Shown here in pieces: positions 3,776 through 57,167 of a DNA stretch of 64,000 nucleotides. Each line of letters opens with the position of its first letter. Within the stretch, counting starts at the first letter, position 1. The notes beneath the pieces were generated by a model. The model had not been told where the DNA came from. It made no database searches and saw nothing but the letters and a program-made list of their open reading frames with translations. The position numbers and the translations under genes were made by a program. The DNA comes from Micromonospora inyonensis (GTDB lineage Bacteria; Actinomycetota; Actinomycetes; Mycobacteriales; Micromonosporaceae). The stretch is from positions 868,001-932,000 of the forward strand of contig NZ_FMHU01000001.1 of NCBI RefSeq assembly GCF_900091415.1, read 5' to 3'.

Positions 3776-3860
3776 GGTGTTTGCAGGGGCACCCTGCTCA
3801 CGCTTTCTGCATTGCAGGGTGCCCCTGCAAACACCTCGTGCCCCTGCAAACATCTCGGCG
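3776..3860. repeat. Dispersed intergenic hairpin repeat, copy 1 (plus an extra half-copy)
   Basis: Perfect 22-bp inverted arms lie at 3776-3797 and 3814-3835, with core TTGCAGGGGCACCCTGC, separated by a 16-base loop containing cgctttctg. An extra half arm (gtgcccctgcaaaca) follows at 3838-3852. The element sits between divergently transcribed genes, so it is not simply a transcription terminator. It belongs to the same family as the repeats near 10.36, 15.34, 42.57, 51.49 and 57.06 kb. Confidence 0.85.
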
Positions 3861-3877
3861 TACGGCACACTGCATCC

Positions 3878-4528
3878 GTGGAGACGCTGGTGCGACGGTG
3901 GCGGGCGGCGGCCCGGGGAGCGGGTGCCCCGGACACGGACGCGTTGACCCGGGCCGGGGAGGAACTGCTCGCCCGGTGGCGGGAGCCGCAACGGCACTAC
4001 CACACCGTGACGCACCTGACCGCCGTGCTGGACGTGGTCGACGCGTACGCCGGGCACGCCGACCGGCCCGACCTGGTCCGGCTCGCCGCCTGGTGCCACG
4101 ACGCGGTCTACGACCCGCACGCCACCGGGGACGCCAACGAGCGCGACAGCGCCGCGCTGGCCGGTACCCTGCTCACCGCTCTGGGGATGCCGGCCGGCGC
4201 GGTGGCCGAGGTCGGCCGGCTGGTGCTGCTCACCGCCGGGCACGGGGTCGCCCCCGACGACCGCGACGGGGCCCTGCTCTGCGACGCCGACCTGGCGATC
4301 CTCGGGGCCGACCCGCAGCGGTACGACGATTACGCCGCACACGTCCGCCGGGAGTACGCGCACGTGCCCGAACCGGCGTTCCGGGCCGGCCGGGCCCGGG
4401 TACTGGCGGGTCTGCTCGCCCTGCCGGCCCTGTTCCGTCTTCCCGAGCCGGCGCAGCGGTGGGAGGCCGCGGCGCGGGCGAACCTGACCCGGGAGCTGGT
4501 CGCCCTGCGGTCCGCCGCACGGGCCTGA
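3878..4528 (+). CDS. HD-superfamily metal-dependent phosphohydrolase
   Basis: A 216-residue soluble protein resembling the predicted HD phosphohydrolases of COG4339. It contains RHYHTVTHL at about 39-47, the HD pair in WCHDAVYDP at 74-75 and a later CDADLAILG aspartate. HD proteins use these His/Asp residues to bind metal and hydrolyse phosphomonoesters or nucleotides; the substrate here is unknown. The GTG start at 3878 follows the hairpin repeat. The gene lies 96 bases before the GlcD-like gene on the same strand, possibly as an operon. Confidence 0.78.
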   Translation: METLVRRWRAAARGAGAPDTDALTRAGEELLARWREPQRHYHTVTHLTAVLDVVDAYAGHADRPDLVRLAAWCHDAVYDPHATGDANERDSAALAGTLLTALGMPAGAVAEVGRLVLLTAGHGVAPDDRDGALLCDADLAILGADPQRYDDYAAHVRREYAHVPEPAFRAGRARVLAGLLALPALFRLPEPAQRWEAAARANLTRELVALRSAARA

Positions 4529-4624
4529 GGGGGACGCCGGCCGCCCTGCGGTCCGCCGCGCGGGCCGGTCCGGGTGCTGGCCGCACTGTGGTCTGCGAGC
4601 TGGGCCGACGCTAACCTCTCCTGC

Positions 4625-6025
4625 ATGCCCGCCACCCCTCTCCTCGACGAACTGCGCGCCGCGCTCGGTGGGACCGCCGTGCTGACCGACCCGGACCTGC
4701 TGCGGATGCACCAGCGGGACGAGGCCGACCTCTGCGCCGCCGGTACCCCGCTGGTCGTGGTCCGCCCGCGGGACACCGCAGGGGTGGTCGCGGTGGTCCG
4801 CGCGGCGGCGCGGCACGGCGTACCGGTGGTGCCGCAGGGCGCACGGACCGGACTGGCCGGTGCGGCGAACGCGGTCGACGGCGCGGTGGTGCTGAGCACC
4901 TCGGCGATGGACGCCATCCTGGAGATCGACCCGGTCAGCCGGCTCGCCGTGGTGCAGCCCGGGGTGGTCAACGCCACCCTGGCCGGCGCGGTCCGCCGGG
5001 AGGGGCTCTACTACCCGCCCGACCCGGGCTCCTGGGAGTCGTCCACCATCGGCGGCAACGTCGCCACCAACGCCGGTGGGATGTGCTGCGTGAAGTACGG
5101 CGTGACCACCGAGTACGTGCTCGGCCTGGAGGTGGTGCTCGCCACCGGCGAGGTGCTGCGCACCGGGCGGCGCACCGCCAAGGGCGTCGCCGGGTACGAC
5201 CTGACCCGCCTCTTCGTCGGCTCGGAGGGGACCCTCGGGATCATCACCGAGGTGACCCTGGCGCTGCGCCCCGCCCCGGAGGAGTCGCTGACCCTGGTGG
5301 CGGTCTTCGACTCCACCGCCGACGCCGGCACGGCGGTCGCCGGCATCGCCGCGCAGGGGTTGAGCCCGAGCCTGCTGGAACTGCTCGACCGCACCCACCT
5401 CGAGGCGATCGAGGCGTACCAGCCGATGGGGCTGCGCACCGACGCCGAGGCGCTGCTGCTCGCGGCGGCCGACACCGGCCCCCGGGCCGCCGAGGACCTG
5501 GCCCGGCTGGAGAAGATCTGCGAGGCAGCCGGCGCGTCCGAGGTGTACGTCGCCACCGACGCCGTGGAGGCGGCGGCGCTGCTCCAGGCCCGCCGACTGG
5601 CGCACCCGGCGATGGAGGCGTTCGCCGCCCGGTCGTACCCGGAGGGCAACGGCGGTCTGGTGATCGACGACGTGGCGGTGCCGCGCGGCGCGCTCGCCGC
5701 GCTGCTCGACGGGGTGGCCCGGATCGCCGCCGAGTGTGACGTGCCGATCGGCGTGGTCGGGCACGCCGGCGACGGCAACATGCACCCCAACATCGTGGTC
5801 GACCGGGCCGACCCGGCCAGCCTGGAGCGGGGTCGCCGGGCCTTCGACGAGATCATGCGGCTCGGCCTGGAACTGGGCGGCACCTGCACCGGCGAGCACG
5901 GGGTGGGCCTGCTCAAGCGGGAGTGGCTGGCCCGCGAGATCGGCCCGGTCGGCGTCCGGGTGCACCACGCGATCAAGGCGGCGCTCGACCCGGACGGCCT
6001 GTTCAACCCGGGCAAGGTGCTCTGA
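4625..6025 (+). CDS. FAD-linked oxidase, GlcD/D-lactate dehydrogenase type
   Basis: A 466-residue flavoprotein. The N-terminal PCMH-type FAD domain shows VPVVPQGARTGLAGAA and IGGNVATNAGGM, followed by a YDLTRLFVGSEGTLGIITE motif. The C-terminal FAD-oxidase domain carries VVGHAGDGNMHPN and CTGEHGVGLLK and ends in DPDGLFNPGKVL. Such enzymes oxidise 2-hydroxyacids (glycolate, D-lactate, 2-hydroxyglutarate) to 2-keto acids. The exact substrate is not determinable. I chose the ATG at 4625 because it gives the conventional N-terminus. The gene converges on glpD with a 21-base gap. Confidence 0.88.
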   Translation: MPATPLLDELRAALGGTAVLTDPDLLRMHQRDEADLCAAGTPLVVVRPRDTAGVVAVVRAAARHGVPVVPQGARTGLAGAANAVDGAVVLSTSAMDAILEIDPVSRLAVVQPGVVNATLAGAVRREGLYYPPDPGSWESSTIGGNVATNAGGMCCVKYGVTTEYVLGLEVVLATGEVLRTGRRTAKGVAGYDLTRLFVGSEGTLGIITEVTLALRPAPEESLTLVAVFDSTADAGTAVAGIAAQGLSPSLLELLDRTHLEAIEAYQPMGLRTDAEALLLAAADTGPRAAEDLARLEKICEAAGASEVYVATDAVEAAALLQARRLAHPAMEAFAARSYPEGNGGLVIDDVAVPRGALAALLDGVARIAAECDVPIGVVGHAGDGNMHPNIVVDRADPASLERGRRAFDEIMRLGLELGGTCTGEHGVGLLKREWLAREIGPVGVRVHHAIKAALDPDGLFNPGKVL

Positions 6026-6046
6026 CCGCAGGGGCCCGCGGCAGGG

Positions 6047-7876
6047 TCAGTACGGGGCGGGCAGTCCGCTCAGGTCGCTGTCCGTGCCCCGGTCGGCGGC
6101 GAAGCCCCGGACGTCGGGCGCGCCGAGCCGGGCCGCGTCGGCGGTGGCGTCGTCCGGCATCCGCTGCGACTGCCGTTCCGCCTCCACCCGGGCCCGGTAG
6201 TGCGCGACCTCGCGGGCCCGCACGTCGGCGTCCCAGCCCAGCACCGCGCCCATCAGCTCGGCCGTGTGCTCCACCGACTCCAGCCCCCGGTGGCTGGTCT
6301 CGAAGGAGATCCGGGTACGTCGGGTCAGCACGTCCTCCAGGTGCAGCGCGCCCTCCGCCTGGGCCGCGTAGGTGACCTCGGCGGCCAGGTACTCGGGGGC
6401 ACCGGCGAGCGGGGCGGCGAGCAGCGGATCCGCCGCGATCAGGGCGAGCAGGTCCAGGGTGAGGCTGCCGTACCGCTCCAGCAGGTGTTCCACCACGCCG
6501 ACCGGCACCCCGTGGCGGCGGGCCAGGTCGGCCCGGTCCCGCCACATCGCCGCGTACCCGTCCGCGCCGAGCAGCGGCAGGTCGGCGGTGCGGGAGGGCC
6601 GGACGTTGCCGAGCCGGCGGGCGGCCCGGTCGACCACGTCGCCGGCCATCACCCGGTACGTCGTGTACTTCCCACCGGCCACCAGCAGCAGCCCGAGCAT
6701 CGGCTCGACCACGGCGTGCTCGCGGGAGAGCTTCGAGGTGGAATCCGCCTCGCCGGAGAGCAGCGGGCGCAGCCCGGCGTAGACGCCCTCGATGTCGGCG
6801 GTGGTCAACGGCTTGTCCAGCACCAGGTTGACCTGCTCCAGCAGGTATTCGATGTCGCGCGCGGAGGCGGCCGGGTGGGACCGGTCCAGCCGCCAGTCCG
6901 TGTCGGTGGTGCCGATGATCCAGTGCCCGCCCCACGGGATGACGAAGAGCACCGACGTCGGCGTCCGCAGGATCAGCCCGGCCTCGCCGGTGATCGCCGA
7001 GCGGGGCACCACCAGGTGCACCCCCTTGGAGGCGCGGACCCGCACCCCGGGGCGGAGTCCCACGTCGTTGAGCATCCGGGACATGTCGTCGCTCCACACC
7101 CCGGTGGCGGCGATGACCGTACGGGCGTGCACCTCGAACTCGGCGCCCGGTGAGCCGGGCGGTGCCTCCAGGTCACGGACCCGCACCCCGGTCACCTCCC
7201 GGGCCTGCCGGATCAGACCGACCGCGCGGGCGCTGGTCACCATCGTCGCGCCGAGGCTCGCCGCGGTGCGGGCCAGGGTGACCACCAGTCGGGCGTCGTC
7301 CACCTGCCCGTCGAAGTAGCGGATCGCGCCGGCCACCTTGTCGGGCCGCAGGCTGGGGAAGACCCGCCGGGTGCCCTCCCGGGTCAGGTGCCGGTGCAGC
7401 GGCATGCCCCGACCGCCGCCGAAGAGGCCGGCGAAGACGTCGTACGCGGCCACGCCGGTGCCGTAGTAGGCCCGCCGCCAGGCGCGGGCCGGCAGGTCGC
7501 GCACCCCGCCGCCGTCCGGCAGCGGCACCAGGATCGGCACCGGACGGACCAGGTGCGGCGCGAGCCGGGTGGCGAGCAGCCCCCGCTCGGTGAGCGCCTC
7601 GTGCACCAGGCCGAACTCCAACTGCTCCAGGTAGCGCAGGCCACCGTGGATCAGCTTGCTCGACCGGCTGGAAGTGCCGGCGGCGAAGTCCCGCGCCTCG
7701 ACCAGGGCGACCTTGAGGCCCCGGGACGCGGCGTCCAGCGCGGCACCCGCACCCGTCACCCCACCCCCGATGACCAGGACGTCGAACCGTTCGGCCCGAA
7801 GCCGGCGCAGGTCGGCGGCCCGCCGGACGGGCGACAGTTGACCGGCGGCGGCACGGGAGATGTTGGGGTCACGCAC
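6047..7876 (-). CDS. glpD: Aerobic glycerol-3-phosphate dehydrogenase
   Basis: A 609-residue FAD enzyme that oxidises sn-glycerol 3-phosphate to dihydroxyacetone phosphate and feeds electrons to the quinone pool at the membrane. The Rossmann motif VLVIGGGVTGAGAALDAA is near residue 30, followed by the family signatures GTSSRSSKLIHGGLRYLE and later ASKGVHLVVPR and WIIGTTDTDW. The C-terminal DAO_C domain is complete. The GTG at 7876 gives a normal N-terminus; longer in-frame extensions would run into the divergent protease gene. No glycerol kinase or facilitator gene lies next to it. Confidence 0.93.
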   Translation of the reverse strand: MRDPNISRAAAGQLSPVRRAADLRRLRAERFDVLVIGGGVTGAGAALDAASRGLKVALVEARDFAAGTSSRSSKLIHGGLRYLEQLEFGLVHEALTERGLLATRLAPHLVRPVPILVPLPDGGGVRDLPARAWRRAYYGTGVAAYDVFAGLFGGGRGMPLHRHLTREGTRRVFPSLRPDKVAGAIRYFDGQVDDARLVVTLARTAASLGATMVTSARAVGLIRQAREVTGVRVRDLEAPPGSPGAEFEVHARTVIAATGVWSDDMSRMLNDVGLRPGVRVRASKGVHLVVPRSAITGEAGLILRTPTSVLFVIPWGGHWIIGTTDTDWRLDRSHPAASARDIEYLLEQVNLVLDKPLTTADIEGVYAGLRPLLSGEADSTSKLSREHAVVEPMLGLLLVAGGKYTTYRVMAGDVVDRAARRLGNVRPSRTADLPLLGADGYAAMWRDRADLARRHGVPVGVVEHLLERYGSLTLDLLALIAADPLLAAPLAGAPEYLAAEVTYAAQAEGALHLEDVLTRRTRISFETSHRGLESVEHTAELMGAVLGWDADVRAREVAHYRARVEAERQSQRMPDDATADAARLGAPDVRGFAADRGTDSDLSGLPAPY

Positions 7877-7942
7877 CCGTTCACGGTAACCGGGACCGAC
7901 GGTCGGCGGCACGCCGCGGACCCGCCTGCGTACCGTACGGGC

Positions 7943-10360
7943 ATGCAGCCCGTGTACCCGCCCGGTCCTCCCGTACCCCCGTTCGCGGCGGCCCCACCCG
8001 GGCCGTTGGCGGTGGTCGCGGCCGTTCTGGCCGGTTGCTGGACGGTCGCGGTGGTCCTGCTCCCCCAGGTCGTCGGGTGGGGTGCCGAGCAGGCGCTGCT
8101 CGCCAGCGGGCTCAACCGGCCGGTCTGGCTCTGGCCGGTGGTCTCCCTGGTCACCCTCGTCGCGGTCGGGGTGCCCGCGCTGCTGCTGGCCCTGGTGCCC
8201 CGCTCCGGGGCGGTCCGCGCCACCGGCCGGGCCTGGCTCGCCGGGTCGGTGGCGCTCGGCGTGCTCGGGCTGCTCCGGATGGTGCCGGCGGTGCACCACG
8301 AGGCGTACCTCGCCGCGCTCGCCCTGGTCGCCGCCCTGACCGCCGTGGTCGCCGCCCGCCTGCTCCGCAGCGACACCCCGGCCCTCGCCGACACCCCGGC
8401 CCCCGCCGACGGCCCATCCCCCGGCGGGGTCACCCCGCTCGCGGTCGCCGCCGGCCTGGCCCTGCTGCTGCCCTGGCTCTGGGTGGGCGCACTCGGCGGG
8501 CTGCTGGAGACGGTGCTCGCCGCCCTGGCCGCGGCGGCGGTCGGTCTCCTCGCCGGGGTCCTGCTCGACGCCGGGTTCTGGGCCCGCTTCGGTGCCGGTC
8601 GGCCCACCCGCCCGGCGCTGCTGGTGCTGTGCGGCGGCCTGGTCGCCGGGGTGACGCTGCTACTGCTCGTCGCCGGCACCGGCCACTCCGGTGCGCAGCT
8701 CGCCCCGCTGCTGACCCTCCCACCTGCCGGTTTCGTGCTCGGCGCACTCCAGGTGCCCACCGACCCACGCGGGCGGCCGACCGGCCGCGCCCCGGTGCGG
8801 TGGCTGGTCGGGCTGGGTGTGTTCGGTCCGCTGGCCTTCACCGACCCGGAGGAGGTCAGCCTGCTGCTGAGCACCACCCGGGACGTGCCGTTCTGGGTGA
8901 TGGTCAGCGCCGGGACCGGGCTGGCCGTCGCGCTCGTGCTCGCGGTGGGGTACGGCGTGCTGCTGCCGCGCCGCGTGCCGGGGCGGCGGTTCGCCGTGGC
9001 CGCCGTCGCGGTCCTCGCGGTGGCGGGCGCCCTGGTGTACGCCGGCCCGGGCCAGCCGGGGCTGCACGGCGAACGCCTGCTGGTGGTGCTGCGGCAGCAG
9101 GCCGACCTGCGGGACGTGCCCGCCACCCCGGGCGTGGCCGGGCGGGACGCCCGGGTCCGCGAGGTCTACCGCCGGCTGGTCGACACCGCCGACCATACCC
9201 AGGCCGACCTGCGCCAGGATCTGGACCGGTTGCGACTGGCCCACACCCCGTACTACCTGGTCAACGCGATCGAGGTGGACGGCGGTCCAGCGGTGCGGGC
9301 CTGGCTCGCGAGCCGCCCCGAGGTGGACCGGGTGCTGGTCAGCCAACGGTTGCGTCCGCTTCCCGCGCCGGCCGGCACCAGCCGGGGCGACGCCGCCGGC
9401 CCCACCGGTCCCGAGTGGAACATCCGTCTGATCGGGGCGGACCGGGTCTGGTCGGAGCTGGACGTGGACGGCTCCGGTATCACCGTGGGCAGCTCGGACT
9501 CGGGCGTGGACGCGGGCCACCCGGCGCTTCAGGCCGGGTTCCGGGGCGGCGACGACTCCTGGTACGACCCGTGGGAGGGCAGCCGGTCCCCGCGGGACAA
9601 GGGCGGGCACGGCACCCACACCATGGGCAGCGCGGTGGGGCGGAACGGCATCGGGGTCGCGCCCGGCGCGAACTGGACCGGCTGCGTGAACCTCGACCGC
9701 AACCTCGGCAGCCCGGCACGTTACCTGGACTGCCTCCAGTTCATGCTGGCCCCGTTCCCGCCCGGCGGTGACCCGTTCACCGACGGCCGGCCCGAGCGGG
9801 CCCCACACGTGCTGACCAACTCGTGGGGCTGTCCGACGATCGAGGGCTGCGACCCGCACGTGCTGCGACCGGCCACCGCCGCCTTCGACGCGGCCGGGGT
9901 GTTCGTGGTGGCCGCGGCCGGCAACACCGGCCCGTACTGCGGGTCGATCGACGACCCGACGGCACCCTACGCGGACGTGTTCACGGTCGGCGCGGTGGAC
10001 CGGTCCCGCCGGGTCACCGACTTCTCCAGCCGGGGACCGGTGCCGGGGGTCGCCAAACCGGACCTGGTCGCGCCGGGCGCGGCGGTACGCTCCGCGATGC
10101 CCGGCGGCGGGTACTCCGTGCTGGACGGCACGTCGATGGCGACCCCGCAGGTGGCCGGCGTGGTGGCGCTGATGTGGTCGGCCGATCCGGCGCTCGTCGG
10201 TGACCTGGACCGCACCCGGAGCATCCTGCGGGAGACCGCCACCCCGGTGGAGACGTCGCCGCAACCGGGCGGGGAGACCGGATCGTGCGGCGGCACCGCC
10301 AACGTCGCCGGAGCCGGTCTGGTCGACGCCTACGCCGCCGTCCGCGCCGCCCGGGTGTAA
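7943..10360 (+). CDS. Multi-pass membrane protein fused to an S8 (subtilisin) serine protease
   Basis: An 805-residue protein. The first ~360 residues contain about ten hydrophobic helices. A linker of about 100 residues resembling a protease prodomain follows (VREVYRRLVDTADHTQADL; ASRPEVDRVLVSQRL). Then comes a full subtilisin domain with catalytic Asp519 (SSDSGVD), His556 (GGHGTHTMG), oxyanion Asn661 (AAAGNTG) and Ser731 (DGTSMATPQVAG). All triad residues are intact, so it should be an active, membrane-tethered protease whose catalytic domain probably faces outside. Ordinary secreted S8 proteases have one signal peptide, so the polytopic N-terminus is unusual. The ATG at 7943 follows the divergent glpD start by 66 bases. 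Confidence 0.87.
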   Translation: MQPVYPPGPPVPPFAAAPPGPLAVVAAVLAGCWTVAVVLLPQVVGWGAEQALLASGLNRPVWLWPVVSLVTLVAVGVPALLLALVPRSGAVRATGRAWLAGSVALGVLGLLRMVPAVHHEAYLAALALVAALTAVVAARLLRSDTPALADTPAPADGPSPGGVTPLAVAAGLALLLPWLWVGALGGLLETVLAALAAAAVGLLAGVLLDAGFWARFGAGRPTRPALLVLCGGLVAGVTLLLLVAGTGHSGAQLAPLLTLPPAGFVLGALQVPTDPRGRPTGRAPVRWLVGLGVFGPLAFTDPEEVSLLLSTTRDVPFWVMVSAGTGLAVALVLAVGYGVLLPRRVPGRRFAVAAVAVLAVAGALVYAGPGQPGLHGERLLVVLRQQADLRDVPATPGVAGRDARVREVYRRLVDTADHTQADLRQDLDRLRLAHTPYYLVNAIEVDGGPAVRAWLASRPEVDRVLVSQRLRPLPAPAGTSRGDAAGPTGPEWNIRLIGADRVWSELDVDGSGITVGSSDSGVDAGHPALQAGFRGGDDSWYDPWEGSRSPRDKGGHGTHTMGSAVGRNGIGVAPGANWTGCVNLDRNLGSPARYLDCLQFMLAPFPPGGDPFTDGRPERAPHVLTNSWGCPTIEGCDPHVLRPATAAFDAAGVFVVAAAGNTGPYCGSIDDPTAPYADVFTVGAVDRSRRVTDFSSRGPVPGVAKPDLVAPGAAVRSAMPGGGYSVLDGTSMATPQVAGVVALMWSADPALVGDLDRTRSILRETATPVETSPQPGGETGSCGGTANVAGAGLVDAYAAVRAARV

Positions 10361-10412
10361 GGAGGGGTCCCTTGTTACCGCTTTTTGTGTAGGAAGGGCC
10401 CCCTGCAACCAC
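10361..10412. repeat. Dispersed intergenic hairpin repeat, copy 2
   Basis: An imperfect inverted repeat with arms GGAGGGGTCCCTTGTTACC and GGAAGGGCCCCCTGCAACC around the loop gctttttgtgta. It begins right at the stop codon of the membrane protease gene and lies 90 bases before the next gene on the same strand, where it could act as a terminator. Arm core and loop match the other five copies in this window. Confidence 0.75.
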
Positions 10413-10502
10413 CCAACCCAACCACCCAACCCACCCCGGCCGGCAGCCGTCGCCGCGGCAGTCGTTCACGTGCTGCCGTGCCATGGCCTAGGGTCGGCGA
10501 CC

Positions 10503-14781: not shown

Positions 14782-15312
14782 ATGACGCGGAATCCGGCCG
14801 GTTCGACAGCACGCGTACCCGCCGTCCGCCGGGTCCGCCCGACCGACGCCGCACGAATGCGGGCCCTGCGCCTGGAGATGCTCGCGGACGCTCCGCTGGC
14901 CTTCCTGGAGACCCTCGCGGACGCCGCCGCCCGTCCGCACGGCGAGTTCGCCGCCCGGATCGCGTACACCTCGACCGGCCCGCACACCGCGCAGTTCGTC
15001 GCCGATCCCGACGGTCGCCTGGTCGGCCACGCCGGGGGCGTCGCCTCGCCGCACGAGGCGGGCCTGACCGTGGTGTTCGGGGTCTACGTCACCCCCGCCT
15101 GGCGCGGCACCGGGCTGCTCGCCGCCCTGATCGACGGGGTAGGGGCCTGGTCCCGGGCGTGCGGACGCCCGGAACTCATGCTGGAGGTGGTGATCGGCAA
15201 CGACCGGGCCTACCGGTCGTACCTGCGGCTGGGCTTCACCGACACCGGGGTACGCGTACCGCACCCCACGATCCCGTCGATGCGCGAACTCCAGATGCGC
15301 CGACCCGCCTGA
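14782..15312 (+). CDS. GNAT-family N-acetyltransferase
   Basis: A 176-residue single-domain acetyltransferase. The acetyl-CoA site is VFGVYVTPAWRGTGLLAALIDGV, followed by a NDRAYRSYLRLGF segment typical of the C-terminal GNAT core. The substrate is unknown. The ATG at 14782 is favoured; a GTG at 14689 would add 31 unconserved-looking residues. It converges on paaN across a hairpin repeat. Confidence 0.8.
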   Translation: MTRNPAGSTARVPAVRRVRPTDAARMRALRLEMLADAPLAFLETLADAAARPHGEFAARIAYTSTGPHTAQFVADPDGRLVGHAGGVASPHEAGLTVVFGVYVTPAWRGTGLLAALIDGVGAWSRACGRPELMLEVVIGNDRAYRSYLRLGFTDTGVRVPHPTIPSMRELQMRRPA

Positions 15313-15334
15313 GGGAGCGCGCCGAGCCGCCTGA

Positions 15335-15395
15335 GGTGGTTGCAGGGAGCCCCTCCTACCAAAAAACGGTAGGAAGGGTCCCCTGCAAACAACCA
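15335..15395. repeat. Dispersed intergenic hairpin repeat, copy 3
   Basis: A long, slightly imperfect inverted repeat: arms ggtggttgcagggagcccct and its counterpart ending agggtcccctgcaaac, continuing inward as cctacc / ggtagg around an a-rich loop (aaaaaac). It lies between two convergent genes, where it can serve as a bidirectional terminator. Confidence 0.83.
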
Positions 15396-15402
15396 ACCCC
15401 GG

Positions 15403-17079
15403 TCAGGCGGTGTGGCGACGGCTCTGCACGACGCGGAACCGGTTCGCCACGTACGCGCCGTCGGTCAGGGCGGCGTTGGCGGCCGGGTTGGCGCCGCTGG
15501 CGTGGAAGTCGGAATACGCCGCCGACTGGTTGACGAAGACCCCTCCGGTCAGGTTGCAGGACAGGTGCACCCCGACCTCGACCGCCGTCGCCTCGGCCGC
15601 GTCGAGCACCGCCTCGTCGGTGGAGTAGACGGCGGCGGTCAGCGCGCCCTTCCGTCCGACCGTGGTGCGGAGGATCTCCAGGCTCTGCGCGGTCGAGCCG
15701 GTGGCGATCACGAACGAGATGGGACCGAACCACTCCCGGCCGTAGGTCGTGGTCGCGTCCGCGCCGAGCTTGACGATGGTCGGCGTACGGACCACCGCGT
15801 CGGGGTGTGCCGGGTGCGCCAACGGACGCGACTCCAGCACGACGTCACCGAGCTTGGCCGCCTCGTCCAGCCGCTCCAGCACGCCGTCGTTGACGATCGC
15901 GCCGGTCAGCTCGACGGCGCGGGCCGGGTCGGCGGTGAGCTTGCCGACCGCCCCGGCGATCCCGGCGGCGACCTCGTCGAAGCTCTTGTGCCCCTGGTCG
16001 GTGGTGATACCGCCGGCCGGGACGAGGATGTTCTGGGAAGTGGTGCACATCTGGCCGCTGTACAGGGTCAGCGTGAAACCGAGGTTGCGGCACAGGCCGG
16101 CGAAGTCGTCGGTGGAGTCGATCACCACCGTGTTCAGCCCGGCCTTCTCGGTGTAGACCGAGGCCTGGCGGGCGTGCTGTTCCAGCCAGTCGCCGTACTC
16201 GGTGGAGCCGGTGAAGTCGACGATCTTCACGGCCGGGTGCAGGGCCAGGTCGGAGGCGAGCTTCTCGCCGGGGGCCTCCGCGGCGAGCAGCACCAGGTTC
16301 GGGTCGAACCCGGCCTCGGCGAGCACCTCCCGGGCCACCTGGACGGTGATCGCCAGCGGCAGCACCGCGCGCGGGTGCGGCTTCACGAGCACCGGGTTGC
16401 CGGTGACCAGCGAGGCGAAGAGACCGGGGTACGAGTTCCAGGTCGGGAAGGTGTTGCAGCCGATCACCAGCGCGACCCCGCGGGGCACCACGTGGAACGT
16501 CTTGGTCATCCGCAGCGGATCGCCCTTGCCGGCCGGCTTCTCCCACCGGGCCGTCGCCGGGTGCCGGGTCATTTCCGCGTACGCGTACGCGATCGCCTCC
16601 AGCGCCCGGTCGAGCGCGTGCGCCCCGCCGGCCTGGAACGCCATCACGAAGGCCTGCCCGCTGGTGTACTGCACCGCGTTGGCCAGCTCGAAGATGCGCT
16701 TGTGCAGGCGGGACAGGATCTCCAGGCAGACCCCGGCACGGGCCTGCGGGCCGGCGTCCCGCCAGGCGGGCAGGGCGGCGGAGGCGACGGTCACCAGCTC
16801 GTCGACCCGGGCGTGCGGGTAGCGCACGCCCAGCGGCACCCCGAACGGGCTCGCCTCGGTGGCGACCCGCTCGCCGGTGCCCGGCTGGTCGAGGGGGAAA
16901 TCGCCGTCCAGGTACGCCTCGAAGGCGGCCCGCCCGTCGGCCGCGGCGGTCTCGCCGTACACGCGGGGACTGGGGGACTCGGGGTAGGCGGACCAGTACC
17001 CGCGCTCGGAGATCGCGGTCAGCGCGCGGGCGAGGGTGTCGGCGTGCGTGGCGTACAGGGGATGCGGGGTCTCCGTCAT
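15403..17079 (-). CDS. paaN: PaaN-type aldehyde dehydrogenase (phenylacetate degradation)
   Basis: A 558-residue aldehyde-dehydrogenase-fold protein. It shows the cofactor Lys233 in VLVKPHP, Glu311 in YTEKAG and catalytic Cys345 in [10 protein letters not shown]. The N-terminus ([15 protein letters not shown]) and overall pattern match the stand-alone PaaN-2 family linked to ring-opened phenylacetyl-CoA metabolism. No other paa genes are in the window, so a role in another aldehyde oxidation is possible. Alternative ATG starts lie 9 and 12 bases upstream. Confidence 0.85.
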
Positions 17080-17162
17080 GCCCGCCATCATGCCGTAGCC
17101 CGGGACCGGTCGGTAGGAGCCGCCGGGTGGCCGCGTTCGACCCGACGGCGCATCCTGGAGCC

Positions 17163-18707: not shown

Positions 18708-19763
18708 GGCCGTGTGTCATAAGTGCCCGTGGTCCTGGCTGTGAGGTTGATCGGCTGGGCGTGTCGGTGATCGATATGCGGTGAGGTCTCCGGTAGATGG
18801 GTTATCGACCAAGACAACCATCTGCACGGAGACCTCGTGGCCAGCGTAGCGGTGACGAGGCGGCACGACCTGACTGACGCGCAGTTTGCGGTGTTGGAGC
18901 CGCTGCTGCCCAGACCGAAGAAGGCAGGTCGACCGCCGAAGTGGAGCAAGCGGCAGCTCATTGACGGGATCAGGTGGCGGGTCCGCACGGGTGCGCCGTG
19001 GCGGGACGTGCCGGACTGCTACGGGCACTGGCGCACGGTGTACGGGCTGTACCGGCGCTGGCAGCGGGCCGGTGTGTGGGCGCGGATCCTGGCCGGGTTG
19101 CAGGGTAGGGCCGACGCGGTCGGGTTGATCACCTGGGACGTGAGCGTGGACTCCACGATCGCCCGGGCGCATCAGCACGCCGCCGGTGCCCGCCGGGACA
19201 GTCACACGCAGGTCGAGCCGCCGGGCGGCAGTGGCGCCGTCGAGCCGGCCGATCACGCGCTGGGCCGCTCGCGTGGCGGTCTGACGACGAAGCTGCACCT
19301 GGCCTGCGAGCAGGGCCGCATGGTGCTGGCGTTCGTCATCACCGGTGGGCAGCGCGGCGACAGCCCGCAGTTCACCACGGTGCTGCACCGCGTCCGGGTG
19401 CCTCGCCTCGGCGTCGGCCGACCCCGGTGCCGGCCGGACCGGGTCCTGGCCGACAAGGCGTACAGCAGCAAGGCCAACCGGAGCTACCTGCGCCGGCGCG
19501 GCATCGGCTGCGTCATCCCGGTCAAGGCCGACCAGGCCGCGAACCGACGCAAGAAGGGCTCGGCGGGTGGCCGTCCACCCGCCTTCGACCCCAGCGCATA
19601 CCGGCAGCGTCACGCCGTGGAGTGCGGCATCAACCTGCTCAAACAGCACCGTGCCGTGGCCACCCGATACGACAAGCTCGCCGTGCGGTACGAAGCCACC
19701 GCCACCATCAGCATGATCGACATCTGGCTCCGACGCCTCGAACGGCACTTATGACACACGGCC
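18708..19763 (+). mobile_element. IS5-family insertion sequence, apparently complete
   Basis: A 1056-bp element bounded by perfect 20-bp terminal inverted repeats (GGCCGTGTGTCATAAGTGCC at the left end). It is flanked by a TA dinucleotide on each side, consistent with a 2-bp target duplication. It carries one intact transposase gene whose TGA stop lies within the right terminal repeat. Intact ends and ORF suggest recent insertion. Confidence 0.92.
18837..19754 (+). CDS. IS5-family transposase
   Basis: A 305-residue DDE transposase in a single frame. The N-terminal DUF4096-type DNA-binding region ([30 protein letters not shown]) is followed by the catalytic core: Asp105 ([15 protein letters not shown]), Asp206 (LADKAYSSK) and Glu262 ([10 protein letters not shown]). 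Related elements often split this gene into two frames joined by frameshifting; here it is continuous. The GTG start lies 129 bases inside the left end. Confidence 0.94.
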
Positions 19764-19945
19764 TAAATCGCTGGCCCGGAAGCTCTGGTCGGGAGGGACG
19801 ATCGCACAACGCCGCCGGCGTTGGGTCGCAAGGCTTGAAAAGTCTTCGGCGATCGCCCTCCCGCAGGAAGCATCCTGCGCCTGACCGGTTACTGGCGTCA
19901 AGTCCCCGGAGGGTGGTTTCTGCACCCTGGGCGAACGGTCGGTTA

Positions 19946-19997
19946 CCCGACGGATCGGCCCGATCCCCCGTTCGGGCGATTCGGCCGATCCGTCGGG
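19946..19997 (-). terminator. Terminator of thrC
   Basis: Perfect 15-bp arms, CCCGACGGATCGGCC (19946-19960) and its complement (19983-19997), with a smaller internal stem in the loop. The structure begins 12 bases after the thrC stop codon on the minus strand, the usual place for an intrinsic terminator. No U-tract is visible. Confidence 0.82.
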
Positions 19998-20009
19998 GCG
20001 GTACGCAGG

Positions 20010-21296
20010 TCAGCCGAGCAGCCCAGCGTCCCGGGCGGCACGCAGCGACGGCTTGATCCGGTGCGTCGGGCCGACCTGGCCGGCGACCGCGTCGATGGTC
20101 TTCAGACCCTCGCCGGTGTTGAAGACCACCGTCTCGGCGGTCCGGTCCAGCCGGCCGGAGGCGACCAGCTTGCGCAGCACCGCGACGGTCACCCCACCGG
20201 CCGTCTCGGCGAAGACCCCGGTGGTCCGGGCGAGCAGCCGGATCCCCGCGCGGATCTCCTCGTCGTCGGCGTGGTCCATCCACCCACCGGTACGGCGCAC
20301 CGCCTCCAGGGCGTAGAGGCCGGCGGCCGGGTCGCCGATGTTCAACGACTTGGCGATGCCGGTCGGCTTGACCGGGGTGATGGTGTCGGTGTCGGCGTGC
20401 AGGGCGGTGGCGATCGGGTTGCAGCCGGTCGACTGCGCGCCGAACACCTTCCAGCCGCCGGCCGGGGCCTCGACCAGCCCGATCTCGACCAGCTCGCTGA
20501 ACGCCTTGTCGACCTTGGTGAGCAGTTCGCCGCTGGCCATCGGGATGACCACCTGAGCCGGGATCCGCCACCCGAGCTGTTCGGCCACCTCGTACCCGAG
20601 GGTCTTCGACCCCTCGGCGTAGTAGGGACGGACGTTCACGTTGACGAACGCGGTGTCCTCGAACTCGTCGGTCTCGACCAGCTCGCCGCAGAGGCGGTTC
20701 ACGTCGTCGTACGAGCCGTCGATGGCGACCAGGTCGCCGCCGTACACGGCGGTGGTGATCACCTTGCCCTGTTCCAGGTCACCCGGGATGAAGACCACCG
20801 AGGGCACGCCGGACCGGGCGGCGTGCGCGGCCACGGAGTTCGCCAGGTTGCCCGTCGAGGCGCAGGCGAAGCGGGTGAAGCCGAGCGCGCGGGCGGCGGT
20901 CAGCGCCACCGAGACCACCCGGTCCTTGAACGAGTGGGTCGGGTTGGCGCTGTCGTCCTTGATCCAGAGCGGGGCGGTGATACCCAGCTCGGCGGCGAGG
21001 TTGCCGGCGGCGACCAGCGGGGTCAGCCCGGGGTCGAGGGTGACCCGGGTGGCCGGGTCCTGGCCGGCGGGCAGGAGGGCGGCGTACCGCCAGAGGTTCT
21101 GCGGGCCGGCCTCGATCTGCTCCCGGGTGACCCGCGCCAGCGCGGCGGTGTCGTAGTCGACCTCGAGCGGGCCGAAACACTCGTAGCAGGCGTGCTGGGC
21201 GGCGAGCGGGTACCGGGCCGAACAGGCGCGGCAGACGAGGGCGCGGGCGGGGCTGGCGGTGGTGTCGATACCGGGGGCGACGATCGTCGACGTCAT
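20010..21296 (-). CDS. thrC: Threonine synthase
   Basis: A 428-residue PLP enzyme that converts O-phosphohomoserine to threonine. Lys124 in ANPTHSFKDR binds the cofactor, and STGNLANSVAAHA is the phosphate-binding loop. The N-terminus carries two Cys pairs (CRAC and CYEC) forming a zinc-ribbon-like segment, common in actinobacterial ThrC. The ATG sits only 12 bases after the end of a SAM-I riboswitch (21309-21440), so expression should fall when S-adenosylmethionine is high. thrC competes with the methionine branch for phosphohomoserine. Confidence 0.95.
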   Translation of the reverse strand: MTSTIVAPGIDTTASPARALVCRACSARYPLAAQHACYECFGPLEVDYDTAALARVTREQIEAGPQNLWRYAALLPAGQDPATRVTLDPGLTPLVAAGNLAAELGITAPLWIKDDSANPTHSFKDRVVSVALTAARALGFTRFACASTGNLANSVAAHAARSGVPSVVFIPGDLEQGKVITTAVYGGDLVAIDGSYDDVNRLCGELVETDEFEDTAFVNVNVRPYYAEGSKTLGYEVAEQLGWRIPAQVVIPMASGELLTKVDKAFSELVEIGLVEAPAGGWKVFGAQSTGCNPIATALHADTDTITPVKPTGIAKSLNIGDPAAGLYALEAVRRTGGWMDHADDEEIRAGIRLLARTTGVFAETAGGVTVAVLRKLVASGRLDRTAETVVFNTGEGLKTIDAVAGQVGPTHRIKPSLRAARDAGLLG

Positions 21297-21308
21297 GTCG
21301 AGGGTCCT

Positions 21309-21440
21309 CTCATCTTTCCCCGCGTCGCACCCTGCGGCGGGGACGGACTTGGCACCTGCCCCGTCGGACGCTCAGCTCTGAGCGCACGGGGTGGTTGCCG
21401 GGGCGTCGTCGGGCCGTATCCCTCAGCCCCTCTGGATGAG
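21309..21440 (-). promoter_or_regulatory. SAM-I (S-box) riboswitch controlling thrC
   Basis: Read on the minus strand, the leader shows all the SAM-I landmarks: P1 strand CTCATC, then CAGAGGGGCTGAGGGA, GGCCCGACGACGCCC, CGGCAACC, GGTGCCAAGTCC and GGAAAGATGAGAGG closing P1. The 3' P1 strand runs straight into a purine-rich Shine-Dalgarno-like GAGAGGA just before the thrC ATG. This suggests translational control, with ribosome access blocked when SAM binds. No separate terminator hairpin is evident between P1 and the start codon. Confidence 0.93.
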
Positions 21441-21574
21441 GTATTCAGTTGTGCAGCAGATTCTACGAGCAGCCTGCGCTTTTGCCGACCCTCCTTCCCA
21501 CGCTGTGAGCCACCTCGCCCCCGCCGGTCCCCGGCGGGCGGGTGGGCCCGGGGCGGGAGGGATAGGGTGCGGCG

Positions 21575-39106: not shown

Positions 39107-39108
39107 GG

Positions 39109-42453: not shown

Positions 42454-42566
42454 GGCGCTCCTCGGGCAGACGGCCGGCCGGGCGACGCCAACCGGGAACC
42501 CCAGGGTAACCAGGCCCGGCCAGCCTCGCATCGCACGTCCGGTGCGTCCGACCGCCCCAGGTGCCG

Positions 42567-42612
42567 GCAGGGGCCCCCTCCTCATCAATAATGATGAACA
42601 GGGGGCCCCTGC
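42567..42612. repeat. Dispersed intergenic hairpin repeat, copy 4
   Basis: Perfect outer arms GCAGGGGCCCCCT / AGGGGGCCCCTGC plus inner TCATCA / TGATGA around an AATAA centre. It lies between the ABC permease stop (42680) and the DUF3263 start, on the minus strand, where it could terminate the exporter operon. A short direct repeat (caacgaaggacggcgg) follows at 42616-42650. Confidence 0.83.
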
Positions 42613-42679
42613 AGACAACGAAGGACGGCGGCAGGCAACGAAGGACGGCGGCCGGTACGAAAGGCGGCGGCCGGCGGTG

Positions 42680-43696
42680 TCAGGCGATGTCGCGGCGGCG
42701 CATCGCCCAGAGGGCCGCGCCGAGGGCGAGCACCAGTCCGGTGACGAGCAGCACCGACGAGTGCTGCCAGGTGATGGTCAGGATGTCGGGCTTGCAGTCG
42801 CCGGACGTCGAGAAGTTACAGGCGTCGTAGTTCTCCAACGTGACCTCCTTCCCCATCCAGGCCAGGCCGTAGGTGGGGATCAGCCATGCCTCGGGGAACT
42901 TCACGTCGGCCAGGGCCAGCACCACGCCGAGACCGAACTGCCCGACGACGCCCACCGCGAGCACGCCGCCCAGGGCGAAGGCGGTGTGCCGCCCCAGCGA
43001 GGCCAGCGCGAACCCGATCACGGCCGCGACCACCACCAACGCGAACGCGCGCAGGCCGGTGAGGGCGAAGGACTGCCAGACGCCCGAGGTCATCTTCTCC
43101 GTGGTGCCGCGGAAGCTGCCGATCGCCCAGAACGCCGCCGTCCAGGCGAGCAGACCGAGCACGGTCACCGTAGCCACGCCGGTGAGCAGGGCGGCCAGTT
43201 TGGTCAGCAGGACGGTGAGCCGTTTCGGCCGCCAGAGCAGCAGGTTCATCATTCCGCCGGTGCTCCACTCGGCCCCGACGAAGGAGGCGCCGACCACGAA
43301 GGTGATCAACCCCAGGATGGCCGCGTACGTGACCAGGGTGGCCCCGAAGCTGTTCCGGAAGTCGAAGGTCGACGGCAGGAACCACCGCGCCTCGAACGCT
43401 TCGCGCGGCGGCGGGGTGATGACCGAACAGTCGTCGGGGAAACGGCCCTCGCTCTGTTCCCCGGTCGCCTTCGCCCGCTCGCACGCGTTGCGTTCCCGCT
43501 CCGCGTGCCGGATCTGCTCCTCGTACTGCGTCTGGGCCTCGCGCTCGGCGGCGGCACGCTGCTCCGGGCCGATCTGCTCGTTGGTGACGAACGTGCCGAC
43601 CGCCACGGCGACGAGCACCAGGAGGCCGATCAGGGCCATGTACCGGGTGAAGCGGCGCTTGCCGAGACGACGCAGCTCGGTGACGTACAGGCTCAT
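42680..43696 (-). CDS. ABC transporter permease (ABC-2 type)
   Basis: A 338-residue membrane protein: one N-terminal helix (YMALIGLLVLVAVAVGTFV) and an extracytoplasmic loop of about 90 residues with Cys72 and Cys90. Five further helices follow, with the cytoplasmic GAEWSTGGMMNLLLWRPKR loop characteristic of ABC-2 permeases. A second outer loop with CNFSTSGDC lies near the C-terminus. Its ATG overlaps the ATPase stop (ATGA), so the pair is one exporter. Cargo unknown. Confidence 0.87.
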   Translation of the reverse strand: MSLYVTELRRLGKRRFTRYMALIGLLVLVAVAVGTFVTNEQIGPEQRAAAEREAQTQYEEQIRHAERERNACERAKATGEQSEGRFPDDCSVITPPPREAFEARWFLPSTFDFRNSFGATLVTYAAILGLITFVVGASFVGAEWSTGGMMNLLLWRPKRLTVLLTKLAALLTGVATVTVLGLLAWTAAFWAIGSFRGTTEKMTSGVWQSFALTGLRAFALVVVAAVIGFALASLGRHTAFALGGVLAVGVVGQFGLGVVLALADVKFPEAWLIPTYGLAWMGKEVTLENYDACNFSTSGDCKPDILTITWQHSSVLLVTGLVLALGAALWAMRRRDIA

Positions 43697-51386: not shown

Positions 51387-51489
51387 GGGACAAGCATGCC
51401 GTCTCCGCCCGTACGGCGCTTCCCTTCGTGGCTGGGCACACAGCCATCGACGTCCCGTCGCACCGTTGGTCGGGGTGCGCACGGTGGTC

Positions 51490-51551
51490 GGGTGGTTGCA
51501 GGGGACCCTTCCTACCGCATTCTGACGAGCAGGGGTCCCCTGCAACCACCC
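51490..51551. repeat. Dispersed intergenic hairpin repeat, copy 5 (most perfect)
   Basis: Perfect 19-bp arms GGGTGGTTGCAGGGGACCC (51490-51508) and its complement (51533-51551) with a 24-base loop containing taccgcattctg. It lies between divergently transcribed genes, so it cannot be a simple terminator for either. Confidence 0.9.
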
Positions 51552-51618
51552 GACGGACAGCGACGTGCACCCGGGCCGCACCCGAGCGGCGTCGTCGGCG
51601 GCCGGTAGCGTGGTCGCC

Positions 51619-54450: not shown

Positions 54451-56433
54451 TCAGGACACGACAGACTCGTCCGGCCCGGTGGACGGCGACGCCACCGGGG
54501 CCGGCGGCCCGGCGTGGGCGGCTGGTTCCGGTGCCGTGCCCGACGGCCTCGACGGACGGTCGGACGGGGGCGGTCCGCCGGCTGGGGTCGAGGTGTCGCC
54601 GGGGGCCGGAGCGCCACGGACAGCGGGCGGAACGGAGCCCCGGGCGGACGGGACGGCACCGCGAGCCGGGGTTGGACCACCGGGGGCGGCGACCTCGCGG
54701 AGCAGGGCGTTCAGTCCGGCGCGCCGGGCCAGCACGGTCATCCGGTCCCCGGCCGTGATCACCATGCGGGAGTCCGGGTTCCACTCGAAGCGCGGCTGGC
54801 CGGCGCGGGCGTGCGCGAGCAGCCGTACGCCGCCGGGGCGGCCGACCGCCTCGAGAGCGCGACCGTCCAGCGGCGATCCGGCGGCCACGGACACCTCGGT
54901 GACCAGCAACGCGTGCCGGCCGACCGGGATGGTGGCGATCATCGCGCGCTCCAGCAACGCGGCGGTGAAGGCCGGCGCGGCCAGGTACGACACGCTGCGC
55001 GAGATACCGATGCCGAAGGCCCGTTGGACGCGTTCGGCGAAGTCCCCGTCGAAGAGGCGCAGCACCACGCGCAGGTCGTCGTTGAGCGCGCGCGCGTTCA
55101 GCGCGGCCTGGAGGTTGGTGCCGTCGTCGGTGGAGACCACCACCAGCGCCTGGCAGGTGCCCACCGACGCCGCGCGGAGGGTTTCCTCCAGGGCCGCGTC
55201 GCCGACGATCAGCGAGACCCCGAGCCGGCGGGCCAGGGACGCGCCGCGCGGCTCGGGGTGCTTGTCGATCACCACGACCTCGACGCCGAAGTCGTGCAAC
55301 TGGGCCATCACCCTCGTCCCGACGTTGCCGAGGCCGACGACGACCACGTGCCCGGAGCGGTCCGGCTGGATCCGCCCGGAGTGCAGGGCCAGCCGGGCCC
55401 GGACGACGCCGTCGACCACCACGGCGGTGATCAGCGGGATCAGCGCCAGCCCGGCGACGCTGAGCACCACCTGCATGACCTGCTCGGCGAAGGGCTTGTT
55501 GACGTCCGGATCCTGCCCGCTGAGCGTGGTGACCAGGGTGAGGTAGAGCGCGTCGATCCCGTCGAGGTGGGCGGCCCGGCCGTTGAGCCAGCCGAGCACC
55601 CCGATCAGCGCGAGCACCGCCAACACGGCGATGCCGATCTTCCGGCTGGCGAAGCTGCGCACCGCGCGGAGCAGCACCGTCACCGGCCGACGGCGACGCC
55701 GGTCGCGTCGGGCCCGCGCCAGTCGCCGCGCGGCCAGTTCGGTGCCCGGCAACCGGCCGGTCGCCTCGGCGAGCACCACGTCCGCGCCGGCCTCGTCGGC
55801 GGGGAGCACCCGCACCTCGCGTGGATCGCGGGTGTCGGCCACCGCGCAGACGACGTCCTCCGGGCGGACGTCGTCACGGCGGGCGACGTAGAGGGTGCGG
55901 CCGGCATGCCGGAAGTGGGTGGGGGCGACCTCGCCCAGCGCGGCGGCCACGAACGCCGGGGCGGCCATGGTGGCGTCGGAGAGGACCGCCGAGTCGGGGA
56001 AGATCTGCCGTACGCCGTTGGCCAGGCCGGTGTTGAACATCCGGACCACCAGGCGCAGCCTCGGCTCGACCTCCTGGGCACAGAGCGCGGCATGCATGTT
56101 GCCCACGTCGTCCTGGTGCAGCAGGGCCAGCCCGTCCGCGCCGGCCAGCCCGGCTCGGCGGAACGTCGCCTCGTCGAGCCGGTCGGCCAGCACCACGTCG
56201 ATGCCGTGGAGGTCCCGGCCGTCGGGCCCGTCGGAGCGGCGCCGCTCGGGCACGATCAGGGTGACCCGGATCCGGCCGGTGGACACCTCGCCGGCGAGCA
56301 GCGCCCGCACCACCCAGTAGGCGAGCGGGTCGTGCCCGCAGACCACGTAGTGGGGGCGGGAGCCCGCGTTGGCCCGTAACCGCCGGCTGGCCCGCCACGC
56401 ACGGTCGAGCAGGGGCTCCGCCATGTGCGGCAT
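54451..56433 (-). CDS. RCK-2TM-RCK potassium-channel-like protein
   Basis: A 660-residue protein. An N-terminal RCK-like Rossmann domain (HYVVCGHDPLAYWVVRAL, about 28-150) and its C-domain come first. A pair of helices follows: IGIAVLAVLALIGVLGW (about 266-283) and VVLSVAGLALIPLITAVVV (about 322-340). A second RCK domain comes next (HVVVVGLGNVGTRVM, about 362-376; VVIDKHPEP; LIVGDAALEETLRAA) and then a proline-rich tail. The loop between helices reads TLVTTLSGQDPD, not the TVGYG filter, so ion selectivity is doubtful. It may gate ions in response to NAD or nucleotides. ATG at 56433 or 56424. Confidence 0.84.
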   Translation of the reverse strand: MPHMAEPLLDRAWRASRRLRANAGSRPHYVVCGHDPLAYWVVRALLAGEVSTGRIRVTLIVPERRRSDGPDGRDLHGIDVVLADRLDEATFRRAGLAGADGLALLHQDDVGNMHAALCAQEVEPRLRLVVRMFNTGLANGVRQIFPDSAVLSDATMAAPAFVAAALGEVAPTHFRHAGRTLYVARRDDVRPEDVVCAVADTRDPREVRVLPADEAGADVVLAEATGRLPGTELAARRLARARRDRRRRRPVTVLLRAVRSFASRKIGIAVLAVLALIGVLGWLNGRAAHLDGIDALYLTLVTTLSGQDPDVNKPFAEQVMQVVLSVAGLALIPLITAVVVDGVVRARLALHSGRIQPDRSGHVVVVGLGNVGTRVMAQLHDFGVEVVVIDKHPEPRGASLARRLGVSLIVGDAALEETLRAASVGTCQALVVVSTDDGTNLQAALNARALNDDLRVVLRLFDGDFAERVQRAFGIGISRSVSYLAAPAFTAALLERAMIATIPVGRHALLVTEVSVAAGSPLDGRALEAVGRPGGVRLLAHARAGQPRFEWNPDSRMVITAGDRMTVLARRAGLNALLREVAAPGGPTPARGAVPSARGSVPPAVRGAPAPGDTSTPAGGPPPSDRPSRPSGTAPEPAAHAGPPAPVASPSTGPDESVVS

Positions 56434-56568
56434 GGTAGCCAGTCCCGGCGAACCGTTGGTGTCCGCATGATCCTCATGCCGGCCCACGTGCTTCCCTGCG
56501 CCGGCCGCCGGCCCGGCCGCACGACCGCGGGCAGGCATGTGCCGGCCCGGGGCGGGTAGAGCGGGGTC

Positions 56569-57054
56569 GTGCAGACCTTCCTGCCGTACCCGGACTTCGC
56601 GGCCAGCGCACGGGCGCTGGACCAGCGGCGGCTGGGCAAGCAGCGGGTGGAGGCGATCCAGGTGCTGCGCGGGCTGACCTGGCCCGGTTACGGCTGGCGT
56701 AACCACCCGGCGGTGAGGATGTGGGCCGGCTACGAGGAGGCGCTGGTCCGGTACGGGCTGGACGTCTGCGCGGTGTGGTGCGCGCCGGGGCGGGCGGACA
56801 CCTGCGCGACCACGCTCACCGCCGATCTCGCCGCCGCCTGCGGCATCACCGGAGTACGCGGTCAGGCCGAACTGGCCGCAGCCGGTGAACTGCCACCCTG
56901 GCTGGGCCGGCCGGACCTGCACCGGAGCCACCAGTCGTCCCTGCTGCGCAAGGATCCCGACCACTACCGCCCGGTCTTCGGGGACGTCCCGCCCGACCTG
57001 GAGTACGTCTGGCCCGACTCGGATCGGCCGCGCCGGTGCCTGCCCACCGTGTGA
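56569..57054 (+). CDS. MSMEG_6728-type / pyrimidine-dimer glycosylase-like protein
   Basis: A 161-residue protein beginning MQTFLPYPDFAASARALDQRRLGKQRVEAIQVLRGL, the pattern of the MSMEG_6728 family related to the T4 endonuclease V fold. It includes the conserved NHPAVRMWAGYEEAL and LHRSHQSSLLRKDPDHY segments. Relatives are predicted DNA glycosylases, but activity in this branch is unproven. GTG start at 56569. Confidence 0.83.
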   Translation: MQTFLPYPDFAASARALDQRRLGKQRVEAIQVLRGLTWPGYGWRNHPAVRMWAGYEEALVRYGLDVCAVWCAPGRADTCATTLTADLAAACGITGVRGQAELAAAGELPPWLGRPDLHRSHQSSLLRKDPDHYRPVFGDVPPDLEYVWPDSDRPRRCLPTV

Positions 57055-57056
57055 GG

Positions 57057-57167
57057 TGGTAGCAGGGGTCCCCTGCTACCGCTTTTTGTCGTGCAGGGTG
57101 CCCCTGCAACCACTCGGCACACGCGATGCGTGCAGGGTGCCCCTGCAACCACTCGGCACCCGCGATG
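57057..57167. repeat. Dispersed intergenic hairpin repeat, copy 6, with a 39-bp tandem duplication
   Basis: A perfect TAGCAGGGG-T-CCCCTGCTA palindrome (57060-57078) is followed by the loop motif cgctttttgtcgt. A second arm then occurs twice as tandem 39-bp units (tgcagggtgcccctgcaacc at 57092 and 57131). It lies between two same-strand genes. The duplication shows that the element can expand locally. Confidence 0.85.

Follow-up and report, generated by a model that had tools for sequence, protein, structure and literature searches.

A dispersed 68-bp hairpin family with species-specific versions, putatively terminator-like, in Micromonospora inyonensis and its relatives

In Neisseria meningitidis, paired uptake sequences form hairpins that lie tail-to-tail in 94 cases, in tandem in 124, head-to-head in 10 and within genes in 3, and such paired signals in Neisseria have been proposed to act as two-way 3'-end terminators (PMC1852404). 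According to PMC8355165, poly-U is not needed for termination in all bacteria, and hairpins near stop codons are described there. Here, we describe a family of 68-bp hairpins in Micromonospora inyonensis, starting from a stretch of 64,000 nucleotides (contig NZ_FMHU01000001.1, positions 868,001 to 932,000, forward strand; hereafter the window), in which a sequence-only reading had noticed hairpins with shared arms at six intergenic sites. We interpret them as members of a lineage-amplified family that serves as a bidirectional, terminator-like element at gene 3' ends, a reading to which we give a probability of roughly 55%. Our literature search found no account of this hairpin family, although most subscription papers lay outside its coverage and a publication may exist.

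The hairpin seen at the six sites belongs to a dispersed repeat family with about 180 copies in its own genome, a 6.92-Mb assembly (G000; other G numbers denote relatives). A degenerate pattern for the core had 30 exact matches genome-wide, and the reversed pattern had none. Twenty-nine of these 30 loci (L001 was left out) and five window copies taken directly, the sixth being L008, made up a 34-copy alignment, A1, from which we derived a model, R1, that includes all six window copies. R1 matched all 150 candidates scored, the weakest with an expectation value (E) of 6e-8, and since these were 150 of 2610 first-look candidates, the genome holds at least 150 copies. A half-arm 14-mer occurred in 70 distinct copies on contig C1, 58 of them within the 150, which gives a recapture estimate of about 181 genome-wide; all 11 half-arm sites fetched from outside the list proved to be full hairpins. 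Twenty sampled stretches amounting to 400 kb held 7 full copies, and the window, with 6 full copies in 64 kb, is denser than this sample. The copy sets used below descend from 153 places considered, of which 133 had sequence, 132 had both neighbors called, and 125 were in register for column comparisons. Run on the genome and on relatives, the covariance-type model found many further copies in both, and the belief stated with the sequence-only reading, that similar hairpins exist in Micromonospora genomes, was right, as the family is present in other genomes of the genus. At curated scores, only SAM, tRNA and msiK were recognized by Rfam in the window, and the hairpin family matches no Rfam family.

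The element is 68 bp long, with ends CTGAGG…CCTCAG and sharp borders. The consensus of the 125 in-register copies is CTGAGGTGGTAGCAGGGGTCCCCTGTTACCGCTTTTTGTCGAGCAGGGGTCCCCTGCAACCACCCCAG, and information drops to near background right outside the 68 columns, while the arm centers (columns 19 and 50) accept any base beside almost invariant columns. The inverted CTGAGG...CCTCAG-type ends are terminal inverted repeats, as in miniature inverted-repeat transposable elements (MITEs). Energy folding gave one long stem in 122 of the 125 copies, with a mean of -44.9 kcal/mol as compared to -23.3 for letter shuffles. Each arm is also a near-palindrome, which provides two short hairpins as an alternative fold; two local hairpins in place of one long stem were rejected for other species, whose copies showed no excess of paired changes for them, but may still apply in the own genome.

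Gene contexts were assigned with a purpose-written, codon-based gene caller, not an established program. The 132 copies with both neighbors called comprised 62 in convergent, 56 in tandem and 14 in divergent gaps, as compared to 44, 130 and 76 among 250 background gaps of at least 60 bp (13 of them holding a copy) from 21 segments covering 475 kb, the window included. Both the convergent excess (Fisher p 2e-9) and the divergent deficit (Fisher p 8e-6) were marked. Eight of the 132 copies reach more than 15 bp into a called gene, and the core lies within 60 bp of the stop codon on 124 of 180 gene 3' sides. As a G+C-rich hairpin just after stop codons, the element is placed in the manner of a terminator. 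The TGA within the CTGA end of the element coincides exactly with the stop codon of the gene in 19 copies, all 19 stops being TGA; no convergent copy of this genome uses both CTGA ends as stops. Loop orientation in tandem gaps showed no clear bias relative to gene direction (34 same, 22 opposite). In five other genomes of the genus, 31 top-scoring copies, a choice that favors intact CTGAGG ends, were found in 19 convergent, 12 tandem and 0 divergent gaps, and 21 of 50 3' sides of these top-scoring matches lay at exactly the distance at which the stop equals the element end. The sequence-only reading had held that termination cannot explain all copies; this stands for the 14 divergent ones, but the genome-wide placement is that of 3'-end hairpins, and the window, where two of six copies are divergent, is not typical of the genome.

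Within the genus, 23 of 61 genomes had at least 30 matches to R1 and the remaining 38 had 0-12. With a broader model, R2, matches were found in 50 of 121 genomes and 19 of 44 genera of the Micromonosporaceae, patchily even inside a genus; counts in rich genomes are lower bounds, 84 (genus) and 42 (family) candidates being scored per genome. Across a wider genome collection, a pattern for a relative's version matched 14 stretches, all from Micromonospora, and the own-type pattern had 0 matches in this collection, where near records may be left out. We aligned 19 of 20 copies fetched from other species (A4; L174, near-identical to L171, was left out). Their arms differ in sequence, and the outer arm pairs with the outer and the inner with the inner, with 81.5% of cells paired. 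Cells changed on both sides numbered 46 as compared to 22.2 in shuffled alignments, with 0 of 500 shuffles as high, a figure inflated by the fact that the copies were top matches of a model rewarding pairing. Judging from this alignment, relatives keep the long-stem architecture with compensatory changes in the arms. The compensatory changes that the sequence-only reading had wanted to see are present in other species, but the signal is weak in the own genome.

One convergent gap shows that the same slot can hold unrelated hairpins. Copy 3 of the window (15331..15397, minus strand, R1 69.3 bits) lies between a GNAT gene (14857-15312, plus strand) and an aldehyde dehydrogenase gene (15403-17091, minus strand), and the latter has one match in each of 19 genomes of the genus; among 12 genomes from other families in the order, one has a match. 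Downstream of this gene, in the 20 genomes compared, we found the present family (A) in G000, G006, G009, G017 and G018, and three kinds of hairpins unrelated to it: family B in G002 and G004, with variants in G003 and G005, family C in G008 and G012, and family D in G001 and G007. The others (G010, G011, G013-G016 and G068) have ordinary hairpins or almost no gap there. The assignment to A-D was made by eye, and pattern or model matches confirm it for G006, G018, G002, G004, G001 and G007. Exact half-arms of family C were found in 45 of 61 genomes, with up to 94 in G008 and 0 in the own genome, and the reversed control gave 0 in every genome; those of family B in 31 of 61, never more than 6, with a control count of 1 in four genomes; and those of family D in 9 of 61, at most 13, the control also giving 1-2 in nine genomes, such that family D is clear only in G007 (13) and G001 (9). 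Twenty copies of family C from G034 and G020 were located in 12 convergent, 8 tandem and 0 divergent gaps.

Family C itself (L277-L296) is an A+T-richer, 56-bp hairpin, TGATCAAGAGGTTTGCGTC...GACGCAAACCTCTTGATCA, with 32 bases between the arm words; its loop is variable and its arms are nearly invariant, partly owing to their choice by exact arms. Families D (arms GCCGATCTAGGG; L198 and L200, from G001 and G007) and B (arms TTTCCGGGGnAGCC; L186 and L189, from G004 and G002) are low-copy long hairpins of the same convergent gap. Genomes rich in A and genomes rich in C were weakly distinct (Spearman -0.28, p 0.03, without a correction for kinship), and exclusion between the two families was set aside, the correlation being weak at most.

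Empty sites and shared sites were identified from gap lengths and sequences in five relatives over the window region (G006, G018, G008, G012 and G002). The gap of copy 1, a full element in a divergent gap (3772..3839, plus strand, R1 71.7 bits; the hairpin at 3776), measures 178 bp here and 59-60 bp in G018, G008 and G012. Copy 6 (57051..57118, plus strand, R1 68.8 bits; 57057) lies in a tandem gap, and its TGA end is the stop codon of the gene at 56569-57054; all five relatives have a TGA at this site, and the element is present in G006, in its own version, and missing in the other four. G006 has three of the six positions in common (10361, 15335 and 57057), all at 3' ends. Among these, copy 2 (10350..10417, plus strand, R1 61.7 bits) lies in a tandem gap at the stop of a subtilase gene (7388-10360), whose TAA stop sits within the element end; in G006, its counterpart is found where the orthologous gene ends, and the gene that comes next is a different one. 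G018 has one position in common (15335), and G008, G012 and G002 have none. Copy 5, with a long stem in a divergent gap (51487..51554, plus strand, R1 85.2 bits; 51490), has no counterpart in the orthologous gap in any of G006, G018, G012 and G002; neither of the divergent copies was found in relatives with a comparable gap, and the divergent copies look recent. The three pairs at positions shared with G006 are 69-71% identical, lower than the identity among copies inside each genome (76-81% as means in the own genome; 72-85% in G006), which points to homogenization in each species or to repeated hits on the same slots. The copies in each species carry a local sequence version.

In the reading that we favor, transcription from either side would produce one long G+C-rich stem, its outer and inner arms joined by a small loop, and this stem would stop RNA polymerase, protect the 3' end, or both. 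A single copy could serve two converging genes, and in some copies the CTGA end would supply the gene's own TGA stop. Copies would have spread by some copying process and been retained mainly at 3' ends, presumably through selection, while sharing a local sequence version within each species. A function is favored by the compensatory changes seen elsewhere and by the unrelated families found in one slot; it is disfavored by the weak pairing signal in the own genome and by the lack of a strand signal.

Several results count on this opposing side. In the 34-copy alignment, 79.5% of cells were paired as compared to 78.2% after shuffling (24 of 500 shuffles as high), and pairs 19/50 and 23/46 were Watson-Crick in only 38% and 54% of the 125 copies; to judge from these columns, the pairing constraint looks relaxed in the own genome. 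No preference for an RNA strand was found among the own copies (G-U 64 vs C-A 58 on the transcribed strand), and a run-out with at least four T among the 8 bases following the hairpin occurred on 0 of 180 sides. One of five measures in the other-species set, that of further pair types, gave 25 as compared to 25.2 in shuffles, and the inflation of the compensatory figure and the 14 divergent copies belong here as well. Copy 4, also at a 3' end (42556..42623, minus strand, R1 58.1 bits; 42567; variant loop, tandem gap, downstream of an ABC-2 permease gene at 42680-43696 on the minus strand), has no copy in the orthologous gap of the five relatives; on visual inspection, several of these gaps hold other hairpins. 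The placement could also come from purifying selection on a neutral repeat, and placement alone does not separate a terminator from a neutral or selfish repeat.

The strongest rival is such a neutral or selfish repeat, kept from promoters by selection: a palindrome like those of repetitive extragenic palindromic (REP) elements or MITEs, without host function, mobilized in trans by some CTGA-preferring enzyme, whose copies were lost where they hit promoters or genes. We regard this as possible, though on balance improbable. The approximately 180 copies with sharp borders, the empty sites in relatives, the CTGA end that matches a stop already present in relatives without the element, the patchy presence among genomes, and the weak pairing among own copies all fit it. 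The sequence-only reading had likewise proposed a REP- or MITE-like dispersed element, and dispersal of a short palindrome in many intergenic copies is indeed what we see, but there was no link to a REP-associated tyrosine transposase (RAYT), no target-site duplication, and no separated arms. The 125 copies showed no target-site duplication at any length or border beyond what the many combinations tried allow, and no separated arms occurred in the 100 listed of 154 half-arm places, no systematic transposase search being made. Searching with PF01797 revealed 7 Y1 genes in the own genome, none with a family copy within about 1.5 kb, and no Y1/RAYT match in 19 of the 23 element-rich genomes among the 61. 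A RAYT flanked by copies and present in the repeat-bearing genomes, as for REP elements and bacterial interspersed mosaic elements (BIMEs), was not found; spreading by RAYT is unlikely, and the route is probably a non-RAYT one. Compensatory change in relatives and the occupation of one slot by unrelated families also speak against a selfish repeat.

As for the Y1 genes themselves, five of the seven frames are 230 aa long with similar scores, three being identical (C2:1182079, 2011053, 3078057 and 3266111; C1:2940125), and may be ordinary insertion sequence copies of an IS200/IS605-type element; the Y1 locus L181 also seems to carry a tnpB-like frame.

A bolder form of the terminator reading, which we put forward tentatively and think doubtful, would make the element a mobile stop-and-terminate cassette. 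The 68-bp unit, with CTGA at both ends, would insert at TGA stops and provide a stop together with a two-way terminator for converging genes; with the unrelated families B, C and D it would turn over in the same gene-end slots across the Micromonosporaceae, such that species would rewrite some transcript 3' ends by dispersal, not by point mutation.

It seems unlikely that the family is a DNA-level binding site for a dimeric or nucleoid protein, with the hairpin incidental. Each arm forms an odd palindrome, GCAGGGGnCCCCTGC, with 31 bp (about three helical turns) between the two centers; in favor of this view are GGG/CCC columns that do not vary next to unconstrained central bases across the 125 copies, the lack of strand preference, and a region of C2 (~1.02-2.37 Mb) with one listed copy. 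However, arms from other species co-vary across the long stem, not inside each palindrome, no lone half-arm was seen (11 of 11 fetched off-list sites being full copies), and placement tracks gene ends. A DNA uptake sequence (DUS) system whose versions differ by species, comparable to the DUS dialects of Neisseriaceae, would share abundance, species-specific versions and inverted pairs at gene ends (PMC1852404 and PMC3630211), but is highly improbable given only ~180 copies, a half-arm 14-mer that never stands alone at its 70 distinct C1 places, all of them full hairpins, and the location of most Neisseria signals outside hairpins (table in PMC1852404).

Within the window, R1 recognized exactly six full copies, the weakest with E 4e-13 on its better strand, and one half copy. 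Each of the six folds into a long hairpin whose arms are of the TTGCAGGG(G)/CCCCTGCAA type, as the sequence-only reading had it. In agreement with that reading, our gene caller placed 3776 and 51490 in divergent gaps, 15335 in a convergent gap, and 10361, 42567 and 57057 in tandem gaps. The loop CGCTTTTTGT is exact at 10361 and 57057 only; variant forms occur at 3776, 51490 and 15335, and the loop at 42567 is a different one. In copies 1 and 6, the additional arms, which had been taken to imply amplification, are present but are right-arm tandem duplications (19 bp and 39 bp spacing), not extra insertions. At copy 1, a 19-bp duplication in two units (3819..3856, plus strand) places CCCTGCAA at 3823 and 3842; the half element after copy 6 (57121..57157, plus strand, R1 14.9 bits, E 0.11) belongs to a 39-bp tandem duplication that covers the right half of copy 6 together with its flank, with CCCTGCAA at 57102 and 57141. 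Tandem repeats with a period of 12-80 were commoner near copies (37 of 133) than in control gaps (29 of 390), as expected from slippage at hairpins, and the additional arms just described are duplications of this kind.

Other features were noted along the way. The window contains a SAM riboswitch (21307-21442, minus strand, 70 bits) directly upstream of the gene at 20010-21296 (minus strand), an msiK RNA motif (63742-63800, plus strand, 52 bits), a tRNA-Thr (63355-63429, minus strand), and, in the convergent gap 19755-20009, a separate inverted repeat (19946-19997) whose 25-nt arms show 88% complementarity and are separated by 2 nt. Besides the copy-poor region of C2, no copy is listed for C1 from ~2.0 to 2.47 Mb; sampled stretches of the C2 region carry core-type genes (gcvP) and conjugation genes (TraG/TraD-like). 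A 2228-aa frame at L077:12306-18992 (minus strand) has many winged-helix family matches, with no single stretch passing alone, and may encode a repeat-built protein.

To our knowledge, the ending of transcripts without U-tracts in high-G+C actinobacteria is poorly understood. Near-identical natural copies, empty orthologous sites and species versions constitute a test set for terminator function, gene-end targeting and RAYT-free spread, and the family is a possible source of two-way terminators for antibiotic-producing hosts. If termination fails testing, the family would be a dispersed repeat spread by some mobilizing enzyme.

The family resembles REP elements and BIMEs with RAYT in being short, intergenic, dispersed and palindromic, with a 3'-end bias and no target duplication, and differs in having no linked RAYT, mostly no Y1 match in rich genomes, and a stem kept by compensatory change. 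MITEs are likewise short, non-coding and dispersed with inverted ends, whereas the present family shows no target-site duplication, and no related transposon was found, a systematic transposase search not having been made. The TRIT-type terminators of Mycobacterium are also actinobacterial, abundant, sequence-conserved hairpins at gene 3' ends; by description rather than by sequence comparison, the present element is set apart by its symmetric 68-bp unit, its lineage versions and its empty sites. The U-tract-less terminators of PMC8355165 are not described as repeat families in the accessible part of that paper, and share with our element hairpins near stops and the lack of poly-U. Compared with the paired uptake-signal terminators of Neisseria and Pasteurellaceae, as presented in PMC1852404, the present arms are not found singly, are longer, have no A/T tail and imply no uptake system, while both systems present near-identical hairpins with a tail-to-tail excess, few head-to-head cases, usability in both directions, and species versions.

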